From Sulfurimonas sp. (GTDB lineage: Bacteria; Campylobacterota; Campylobacteria; Campylobacterales; Sulfurimonadaceae): DNA of 64,000 nt. Where the stretch lies: NCBI RefSeq assembly GCF_028714975.1, contig NZ_JAQTLH010000004.1, positions 62,001 to 126,000 on the forward strand. Reading direction: 5' to 3'. Shown one piece after another: positions 52,461 to 55,537 of the stretch (position 1 is the stretch's first letter; each line of letters opens with the position of its first letter). Under the pieces are notes generated by a model. That model was not told the origin of the DNA. It made no database searches and saw only the letters and a list, made by a program, of their open reading frames with translations. The position numbers and the translations under genes are program-made.

Positions 52461-52551
52461 ACAGATTGCGGCAGTTGTCATTTAGATTGCTTCGTTGAGA
52501 TTGCTTCACTTTGTTCGCAATGACGAAGGGGGGGGGTGCAATGACGAAAGG
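52461..52551. repeat. dispersed palindromic repeat (GCAATGACGAAG type), copy 1, with G9 tract
   Basis: Contains AGATTGC three times (52463, 52484, 52498) and GCAATGACGAA twice, elements of a dispersed palindrome I recognise from many bacterial genomes. The second half has a run of nine G at 52528-52536. Lies between the divergent NFACT and oxidase genes. Confidence 0.7.
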
Positions 52552-52600
52552 GGTTTCAATGAAAAACATGACATCTTATGAAGTATTAACATCCAACTTA

Positions 52601-52643
52601 TTGATTAATATTTATACAATAAACTGATTTCTAAATTTATAAT
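52601..52643 (+). promoter_or_regulatory. oxidoreductase promoter with weak CRP/FNR-like site
   Basis: A TATAAT at 52638-52643 and a TTGAT-N4-ATTTA stretch (52601-52614) whose centre is about 42 bases upstream of the predicted start, the class II activator position. Only the left half matches FNR (TTGAT). AAGGAG ribosome site follows at about 52679. Confidence 0.35.
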
Positions 52644-52688
52644 AAATGATAAAGTTTCAATATTAAATTTTTTATTTAAGGAGAAAAA

Positions 52689-53282
52689 ATGACCGATTCG
52701 GTTGATGTGTTAAATATGCTAAAGCTTGTATATACTTTATACACTTTAGCGGTAATCTCGCTTATCGGCTGGTTTGCACTGGGTGTAGTAAACCCAAAGG
52801 GCAAGCCCCGTATACTCAAGCCCGCTACATTTTATACTTATGTAGGTGCGCTTATAACAGTCGGTGTGGCAATTCACATTGTTACATTTAACAAGATTCC
52901 ATGGGTGGAGATAGACTTTAAAAGAGACTCTCTCAAAGCCGCTCAAGTCGTAAATATAACGATTGAAGATCACAAGTTTATGCTTCCTAGCCCAAAAATA
53001 GAACTTAAGTGCAATGAGTATGTTTTATTTGATGTCACAAGTAAAGATTTGACATACGGTTTTGGTATTTTTAGACAAAACAACTCGATGGTTACGCAGA
53101 TGCAGGTAGTTCCGGGAAGCAAAAACGACCTTATGTGGAAGTTTGGCAAAAATGGCGTATATCATTTAAGATCTACTGAATATTCGGGTCCAAAAGGCGC
53201 AAATATGTACATCAAAGATGTTTTTGAAGTCAAAGGATGTGCCGAAGACGACAAATATTCACAAAAAGGAGGAAGTTTATGA
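52689..53282 (+). CDS. heme-copper oxidoreductase subunit II-like, CuA ligands lost
   Basis: 197 residues with two N-terminal membrane segments (LVYTLYTLAVISLIGWFALG and FYTYVGALITVGVAIHI) and a cupredoxin domain. Canonical subunit II ends with CxEYCGxxHxxM; here the equivalent reads STEYSGPKGANM, so both cysteines are Ser and the His is Gly; the usual first His (THGF) is Tyr in TYGF. It therefore cannot hold CuA, pointing to a quinol- or other donor-linked enzyme. Stop overlaps the subunit I ATG (ATGA). Confidence 0.8.
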   Translation: MTDSVDVLNMLKLVYTLYTLAVISLIGWFALGVVNPKGKPRILKPATFYTYVGALITVGVAIHIVTFNKIPWVEIDFKRDSLKAAQVVNITIEDHKFMLPSPKIELKCNEYVLFDVTSKDLTYGFGIFRQNNSMVTQMQVVPGSKNDLMWKFGKNGVYHLRSTEYSGPKGANMYIKDVFEVKGCAEDDKYSQKGGSL

Positions 53283-54919
53283 GTTTTTTAAATAGTTTAA
53301 TAAACGGTCATGAGGGCGGACTTAAAACCGACGGTTTGACGCCTACCCAAAAAGTAACCCTAAGAGCGGTAATAATCGGGGTTCTTTACTACGGTTTATC
53401 GGCGTTAGAGGGAATGATGATGAGAGCGCATGCTATTACTCCGCTACCGATGCTTGATAATTCACACTACTTTTCCGTTATGACGGTTCATCCGATAGTG
53501 GGAATTTTCGGCTCGACTTATCTCATAGTATTTGGAGCATTTACGTTTTTGGTGCCGTATCTGATGAAAAAACCGTTGTACAGCATAAAGCTTGCAAACG
53601 CGACTTGGATACTGATTGCAATTGGTGCTTTGATGGCTTGGCTTGGCGGATTTATATTTCACTATGCTCCGCTTTATACGCTCTACTGGCCGCTTCCTGT
53701 TGATTTTTCACAGTTTAATGCGGTTGGCGGACTTGTCTTTATAACGGGTGTCGCACTTATTATGATAGGGACTTTGGGCTTTATCTACAACATTTTTGCA
53801 ACTGTTTTTTATACCGAAGAGGGTCATGAGAAACGACCGTTTAAGCCGCTTCTTATCTCTGCTTTGGGGATTGACGGGATGCTTAATATATTGTACAAAA
53901 TGACGGGTCGTGAGCCGTATGCAAAAGAGCCTGCGGTTTCACTTCCGGTTGTGGCTATTTTTCGCGGAACGATTGATACTTTTCTTGATGCGCTTGTGAT
54001 TTTGACATGCGGAATTTTAATCTTAGTATACATTATCGGTGACCTTTCAGGTGCTTCTATGGACTACACATCTGTTAATGCGCTGCTTTACAAAAACTTT
54101 TTCTGGTGGGGACTTGACTTAATAGCAGATGGTTTAGTGCTTATTTATATAGCAGGTTCTTGGTATCTTTTAGCAATGCTTATTACGGGTAAAAAACTTT
54201 TTATGCAAAATATCGCAAGAGCGGCTCTTTTACTTGAGCTAATCGTTTCATGGGCTGTTTGGTCGCATCACTTACTGGCAGATCAAGGTCAGTACAATAT
54301 GATGAAACTTGTAAGCGGTGAGATGGTAACGGCGTTTGAGCTTGTAACGCAAGGTATAGCGATTTTCATTACGCTTGTTACTTTATGGAGTGCAAGACCG
54401 TTAAAAATGAGCAATGAGCTAAAATTTTTACTTGGCGGTATTTTAGGTTTTATGTTGGCGGTTCCTGCGGGAATCATTCAAGCGGATATGGGATTAAACA
54501 GAATTTTGCACAACACTCAATGGGTAGCAGGACCTCACTTCCATGTGGCAATACTTGTAGGGCTTACAATGACGCTTTATAGTGCTATCTATATCCTATG
54601 GCCGACGCTCACAAACGGCGTGAAGTTATATAGTCAAAAAATGGCATCTTACCACTTTTGGGCACATTTAATCGGCGGTATCGGAATGGGTGCATTTATG
54701 GGAATGGCTGCGATGGACGGGATGTTAAGAAGAACTCTTTACCTAGAGGGCGAATACCAAACATATATGATACTAGCGGGTATCTGTGGACTTTTACTCC
54801 TCTCTGCTTGGGTAGTGTTTTTGTTAAATGTTCTTATGAGTATAGGGTTAAAAGGGCTTTTGGGTATCTTTAAAAAATCAAAACTTCAAACTAAAGATTT
54901 GGTTCCACAAGAGGCATAA
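53279..54919 (+). CDS. heme-copper oxidoreductase subunit I, NO-reductase-like
   Basis: 547 residues, 12-13 membrane helices. Recognised: low-spin heme His in MTVHPIVG, the CuB His pair in WSHHLLADQ, and heme ligands in GPHFHVAI. The helix VI motif reads FWWGLDLIADGL: by position, Asp stands where oxidases have the first CuB His (GHPEVY) and cNORs have WVVHLWVEG, and a second Asp stands at the cNOR Glu. I infer a NO-reductase-like member (one of the unusual NOR families). Oxygen reduction is not excluded. Confidence 0.75.
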   Translation: MSFLNSLINGHEGGLKTDGLTPTQKVTLRAVIIGVLYYGLSALEGMMMRAHAITPLPMLDNSHYFSVMTVHPIVGIFGSTYLIVFGAFTFLVPYLMKKPLYSIKLANATWILIAIGALMAWLGGFIFHYAPLYTLYWPLPVDFSQFNAVGGLVFITGVALIMIGTLGFIYNIFATVFYTEEGHEKRPFKPLLISALGIDGMLNILYKMTGREPYAKEPAVSLPVVAIFRGTIDTFLDALVILTCGILILVYIIGDLSGASMDYTSVNALLYKNFFWWGLDLIADGLVLIYIAGSWYLLAMLITGKKLFMQNIARAALLLELIVSWAVWSHHLLADQGQYNMMKLVSGEMVTAFELVTQGIAIFITLVTLWSARPLKMSNELKFLLGGILGFMLAVPAGIIQADMGLNRILHNTQWVAGPHFHVAILVGLTMTLYSAIYILWPTLTNGVKLYSQKMASYHFWAHLIGGIGMGAFMGMAAMDGMLRRTLYLEGEYQTYMILAGICGLLLLSAWVVFLLNVLMSIGLKGLLGIFKKSKLQTKDLVPQEA

Positions 54920-54940: not shown

Positions 54941-55537
54941 ATGGTAAATATAGAAAAAATATCAAATCAAATCCTAAACGATGGGCTTTACAATACACTT
55001 CTCTTTGAAATCAAAGAGAGTGTGCCTACACACAATATCACTCCAAAAATGGTAGAAAGAGCACTTATAAAAAATCCGTCACTTATACAGGAGTACAAAG
55101 AGATAAACCGTCAAAGTGAGATCTCAAGTATTCAGGTAAAAAAATTGGCTATCAAAGATGAAGATAGTGAAACGATTGCTAATTTTAAAACAGAACTAAA
55201 CCAAAATATTCAGATTCTAAAAAATCTTGAAAATTTTGAAACGGATTCTAAAAACAGCGCTTATGCCATCTGGATTGGGAGTGTGGGAGTTACCGTTTTG
55301 TTTATGGTTCATAATATTATCGCTCTCTTTAGCGAACTATATGTAGAAGCTCCGTCTCTTGTCTATGGCTCTTACGCAGTTATTTTGTGCTTAACATATA
55401 TTATGTACCTAAAAATAAAAAGAAATCACGACACACAGCATGGGATATTTCAAAATGTTTACGCAAAGACGCAAGAGATATTGCAGGATGGGCTTGAAGC
55501 CTCATATTTTACACGAGACGAGGTGTATGAAAAGTAA
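54941..55537 (+). CDS. membrane protein, unknown, downstream of oxidoreductase
   Basis: 198 residues: an N-terminal ~110-residue helical, soluble part, two membrane segments (AIWIGSVGVTVLFMVHNIIA and LVYGSYAVILCLTYIMYL) and a short soluble tail. It follows subunit I by 21 bases on the same strand, so may be an accessory protein, but no motif supports that. No cysteines in conserved pattern. Confidence 0.65.
   Translation: MVNIEKISNQILNDGLYNTLLFEIKESVPTHNITPKMVERALIKNPSLIQEYKEINRQSEISSIQVKKLAIKDEDSETIANFKTELNQNIQILKNLENFETDSKNSAYAIWIGSVGVTVLFMVHNIIALFSELYVEAPSLVYGSYAVILCLTYIMYLKIKRNHDTQHGIFQNVYAKTQEILQDGLEASYFTRDEVYEK

Follow-up and report, generated by a model that had tools for sequence, protein, structure and literature searches.

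A gNOR-type (NorGH) operon in Sulfurimonas with a His-to-Asp change at the second metal site and a conserved third gene

In genome annotation, alternative NO reductases readily pass for cytochrome oxidases, and a locus in Sulfurimonas raises the question of how such an enzyme is to be read. In the window (the whole stretch of 64,000 nucleotides that was analysed), two overlapping genes encode a heme-copper subunit pair in which several metal ligands known from the oxidases are replaced. Is this a modified oxygen reductase, or an NO reductase of another kind? The earlier note on this DNA had proposed an alternative NOR such as gNOR, with a quinol or another unusual donor. The family assignment is supported here: the catalytic-position Asp is invariant, CuA is lost, the sequences form a separate clade and the gNOR genera are recovered. 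The comparisons support the view that the pair is an ordinary member of the known gNOR (NorGH) family, which is reportedly credited to Sievert et al. 2008, Hemp and Gennis 2008, and Murali et al. 2024. What is new is modest, namely a third gene in the operon and a glutamate, Glu354, that appears to be convergent with cNOR/qNOR; the gNOR family itself was already known.

The first gene of the pair (52689..53282, + strand) encodes the NorH-like subunit II, which is 197 aa long with two transmembrane helices and a cupredoxin domain that lacks the CuA ligands. The second (53279..54919, + strand) encodes the NorG-like subunit I, the catalytic heme-copper/heme-iron subunit of 546 aa, which matches COX1 in Pfam (PF00115, E 1.8e-48). 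The ATG of subunit I at 53279 overlaps the TGA of subunit II (an ATGA overlap). A longer reading frame from 53237 does not represent the real start, because the relatives align from the same Met as the one at 53279.

In subunit II, the earlier note had pointed to STEYSGPKGANM at the place of the CuA motif and to TYGF at the first His, and both are present as written. The protein has no match in a Pfam scan, and the NCBIfam model TIGR02866 (CoxB) gives 28 bits, far under its cut-off. A PDB sequence alignment does find the CuA domain of Thermus ba3 as a weak match (E 4e-4), in which the two Cys ligands correspond to S162 and S166, a His to G170 and the first His to Y123, with Met173 kept. These replacements are not confined to one sequence, as all 32 relatives compared have Y123, S162, E164, S166 and G167. 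Subunit II is thus of the kind expected for gNOR, a cupredoxin subunit with neither heme c nor CuA. A precedent for this loss is the E. coli bo3 quinol oxidase, in which CuA was lost and the cupredoxin fold kept.

The central claim of the earlier note concerned subunit I, where Asp would replace the CuB His in helix VI (FWWGLDLIADG), a second Asp would lie at the position of the cNOR Glu, and the HH pair and HFH heme ligands would be kept. All of this is borne out. The best PDB sequence matches are ba3- and SoxB-like oxidases, and FWWGLDLIAD lies over FWWTGHPIVY of ba3 without gaps. Therefore Asp280 stands at the position of the first CuB His and Asp284 at that of the cross-linked Tyr (codons of Asp280-Leu-Ile-Ala-Asp284, 54116..54130, + strand). 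The cNOR of the same genome has HLWVE, and the same spacing in cNOR/qNOR pairs D280 with His and D284 with Glu. The HH pair of the second metal site is found by alignment as His330-His331 (codons 54266..54271, + strand), and HFH is HFH or HVH in the relatives. H71, H330, H331, H420, H422, D280 and D284 are invariant in 44/44 relatives, so chance or a sequencing error can be ruled out. The same invariance, across relatives down to about 65% identity, excludes a broken gene. Asp280 is confined to the gNOR rows of an alignment that also contains oxidases (9 A-type, 4 B-type, 8 C-type), 6 cNOR-type and 3 qNOR sequences. Nothing in the alignment points to a His from another helix at the CuB position, which the earlier note had named as an outcome against its reading.

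In the same alignment, Glu354 in helix VIII (codon 54338..54340, + strand) falls on the invariant Glu of cNOR/qNOR (SALEP). The position is Glu in 15/15 gNOR and in 9/9 cNOR and qNOR sequences, and in none of 21 oxidases, where the A, B and C types carry Val, Ile or Leu. Because there is an indel nearby, the match with the helix-VIII Glu is only suggestive. An AlphaFold model of subunit I has a pLDDT of 79 overall, which falls below 50 at residues 330-337 and 403-416, and it contains no cofactors. With such values at the HH pair, the model was not used for active-site geometry; D280, H330 and H331 align with metal ligands in a part where it has low confidence. Its fold matches are heme-copper oxidases with E down to 7e-13, the nearest being A-type, including bo3.

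Several observations rule out a canonical cytochrome c oxidase. The first CuB His, the Tyr and the CuA ligands are missing, and no canonical cytochrome oxidase family claims subunit I, the scores being far under the cut-offs (86 bits against 671 for the CtaD equivalog of NCBIfam). The fold and the heme ligands are shared with B-family (ba3-type) and A-family oxygen reductases, which differ in having the Tyr, the first CuB His and CuA. Compared with cNOR (NorCB) and qNOR, there are an acidic residue four positions after the first metal ligand of helix VI, the helix-VIII Glu, the HH pair and the heme ligands in common. In contrast, cNOR and qNOR have His as first FeB ligand, followed by Glu (HLWVE), where subunit I has D280, and they form a clade to which it does not belong; the heme-c subunit and the N-terminal extension of qNOR are both missing here. 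In a maximum-likelihood tree, the gNOR sequences form one clade (support 100/100) that excludes cNOR and qNOR and is placed towards the A and B oxidases, with the exact sister group unsure due to long branches. References for this tree included oxidases from a plasmid search, which had returned oxidases only, and eNOR, sNOR, bNOR and nNOR were left out. These four are likewise sequence-proposed families that combine a heme-copper catalytic subunit with a cupredoxin subunit (PMC8756737, PMC11388526). Their reported active-site residue, where given, is Gln (eNOR) or Asn (sNOR, and also CuANor), as opposed to Asp here (PMC8756737).

The gNOR assignment itself was made by matching the family's published description, in active-site residue and in genera. 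According to this description, gNOR has D as active-site residue, is predicted to have no proton channels and occurs in Sulfurimonas, Sulfurovum and Persephonella (PMC8756737). It is further described as quinone-oxidising and non-electrogenic (PMC8906906), and as a proposal from phylogenomics that stands outside the four biochemically characterised NOR families (PMC11388526). Asp indeed takes the place of the oxidase active-site Tyr, as D284, in 44/44 sequences. The closest relatives of subunit I are from Sulfurimonas (94% identity), and named genome contigs with relatives at 65-94% identity belong to Sulfurimonas, Sulfurovum, Persephonella, Nitratiruptor, other Campylobacterota and Aquificota; a few further relatives are on contigs of MAGs labelled Bacteroidota or Myxococcales. 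The exchange of His for Asp at the metal is shared without exception by the sequences compared from the genera in the published description; as far as sequences can tell, it therefore characterises the family and is not peculiar to one genome. Compared with gNOR/NorGH, the Asp at the catalytic Tyr/Glu position, the cupredoxin-fold subunit II without CuA, the two-gene operon and the host genera are all the same. We found no difference, and add a third conserved gene.

What would such an enzyme do? Very probably, the gNOR (NorGH) of Sulfurimonas is a quinol-dependent NO reductase of the heme-copper superfamily that arose apart from cNOR and qNOR. Menaquinol is the likely electron donor, as subunit II has lost the CuA site through which electrons would enter. 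Electrons would pass over a low-spin heme (H71 and H422, by alignment) to a high-spin heme (H420) and a second metal, which would be held by D280, H330 and H331. Such a 2-His-1-carboxylate set would favour non-heme iron over copper as the metal. At this site two molecules of NO, the presumed substrate, would be converted to N2O, and D284 and E354 may serve in proton supply or set the polarity nearby. It is worth noting that the conserved acidic residues offer clear mutants for studying the repeated origin of NO reduction within the superfamily.

The distribution of the genes bears on this proposal. A gNOR is present in 27/249 Campylobacterota genomes, and among these 27 NirS is found in 24, a NorB-type enzyme in 23 and NosZ in 21. 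This enrichment of denitrification genes is hard to reconcile with an oxygen reductase of the quinol type whose active site is modified, similar to bo3 or to a B-family oxidase without CuA. Such an enzyme would agree with the nearest folds and with the position on the A/B oxidase side of the tree, and O2 could still be bound at Fe or Cu sites whose ligands have changed. However, Asp stands in for the cross-linkable Tyr in 44/44 sequences, and one genome without any other heme-copper oxidase (G131) keeps NirS and NosZ, as would be expected for a denitrifier. We regard the oxygen reductase as improbable. Another activity on nitrogen oxides, such as that of an NO dismutase, seems less credible still, to the point where we give it almost no weight. 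NO dismutases are heme-copper-superfamily enzymes with altered active-site residues, and the ligand set of gNOR is unusual too. However, the examined loci showed no sign of methane or alkane oxidation, and published work keeps NOD and gNOR apart in the same genomes and HMM sets (PMC6094997, PMC10359470).

For the NO reductase favoured here, the genome G131 offers support. It has NirS, NosZ and gNOR (locus L029/L130) and neither cNOR nor qNOR, and because there is no other PF00115 protein, gNOR is the only visible heme-copper NO reductase of this genome; the assembly, a draft of about 90 contigs, is 99% complete, which leaves room for a missed cNOR. This makes G131 a good genome in which to study gNOR as sole NO reductase. 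At the other end are three genomes (G125, G146 and G229) that have gNOR without NirS or NorB, of which only G229 has NosZ; denitrification is therefore not required. The genome of the window has NirS, NorCB, NosZ and ccoN. In this genome, the likely role of gNOR would be the removal of NO beside a canonical NirS-NorCB-NosZ denitrification. Taken over all genomes, the context points to NO reduction, in which gNOR may act as a second denitrification enzyme or as protection against NO.

A related possibility is that gNOR does act on NO, but mainly as a detoxifier of nitrosative stress that stands beside nitrate/nitrite assimilation, and not in respiratory denitrification. We put this just short of an even chance. 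The 23/27 gNOR genomes that already have a cNOR, the three with gNOR but without NirS, and the description of gNOR as non-electrogenic (PMC8906906) all agree with it, and so do the genes that often adjoin gNOR, which are NarK, a NirA-like ferredoxin-nitrite reductase and a Mo-enzyme similar to nitrate reductase or formate dehydrogenase. A NarK, NirA-like or NirJ gene is found at most 6 kb from gNOR in 32/80 named loci, a count in which the background rate is uncontrolled and many loci come from one genus. NirJ is a heme d1 enzyme. Against detoxification as the main role, G131 seems to need gNOR to link NirS with NosZ at the NO stage, and in G015, G203 and G204 norB and nirS are found no more than about 15 kb from gNOR. 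In relatives from Sulfurimonas, the recurrent neighbours are the molybdopterin enzyme, the NirA-like nitrite reductase, NarK and a fused PP2C phosphatase/kinase; example coordinates are L034:3259-5247, L034:1298-3190 and L036:2278-3609. Because alternative NO reductases are so readily mistaken for cytochrome oxidases, estimates of NO reduction and N2O output by Campylobacterota and Aquificota may be too low.

A few other proteins were met at the edge of these searches. Divergent NorB-like proteins, about 40% identical to NorB of cNOR, are encoded at L143 (G176) and at G129:C1:393098-394414. Two weak PF00115 matches belong to a membrane protein of 513 aa whose gene follows that of an ABC ATPase (G000:C8:72393-72665, L004) and to an NnrS-like protein of 411 aa (G000:C2:35460-36020, L005).

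The operon does not end with the two subunits. It continues with a third gene (54941..55537, + strand), a conserved gNOR partner that encodes a helical protein of 198 aa with two transmembrane helices. A relative of this gene adjoins gNOR in 24/27 gNOR genomes and is found in 0/222 genomes without gNOR, which rules out a chance association (Fisher p about 2e-30, uncorrected for shared ancestry). It lies 3' of gNOR on the same strand in 65/80 named loci (65/77 readable). In three of the other 15 loci the contig ends at or just past gNOR, and 12 are without the gene. Of these 12, four were included in the tree, where they make up one clade (support 100/99), so that a single loss is the simplest reading. 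Identity between the third-gene proteins goes down to about 20%, with Y52, N87, E97, S114 and F121 invariant in an alignment of 32. The AlphaFold model is confident (pLDDT 91.5) and all-helical. In it, a soluble part at the N-terminus leads into two membrane helices, which are followed by a long helix at the C-terminus; the charged residues suggest that both ends are cytoplasmic. Searches of Pfam, NCBIfam, PHROGs, PDB sequences and PDB folds gave no significant match, and a weak NCBIfam match to GapS6a (E 0.04) was taken as chance.

Judging from the co-occurrence, the third-gene protein is probably an extra gNOR subunit or an assembly factor. A more specific proposal, on which we are evenly divided, is that gNOR is a three-protein system, in which this protein would be a dedicated subunit or a metal/heme-insertion factor for a 2-His-1-carboxylate site with acidic residues convergent with cNOR (D284, E354). 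In practice, the gene can serve as a marker of gNOR operons, and it may be the missing component when the enzyme is to be expressed. In one branch of gNOR operons (33 loci, e.g. L091:8543-9046) a fourth gene of about 168 aa follows the third, again with no family match. Leaving the primary gNOR papers out of account, we know of no description of the third or the fourth gene together with gNOR.

The region in front of the operon (52602..52688, + strand) is conserved in close relatives. It contains TTGATTAA..TTTATACAAT and TG.TAAAGTTT blocks followed by an RBS, and is likely a promoter. Further upstream, at 52497-52560 of the window, lies a repeat, GAGATTGCTTCACTTTGTTCGCAATGACGAA, followed by a run of 9 G. 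The core of the repeat has about 16 copies in the genome, the repeat and the G run are both missing at this place in close relatives, and the G run could be variable in length.
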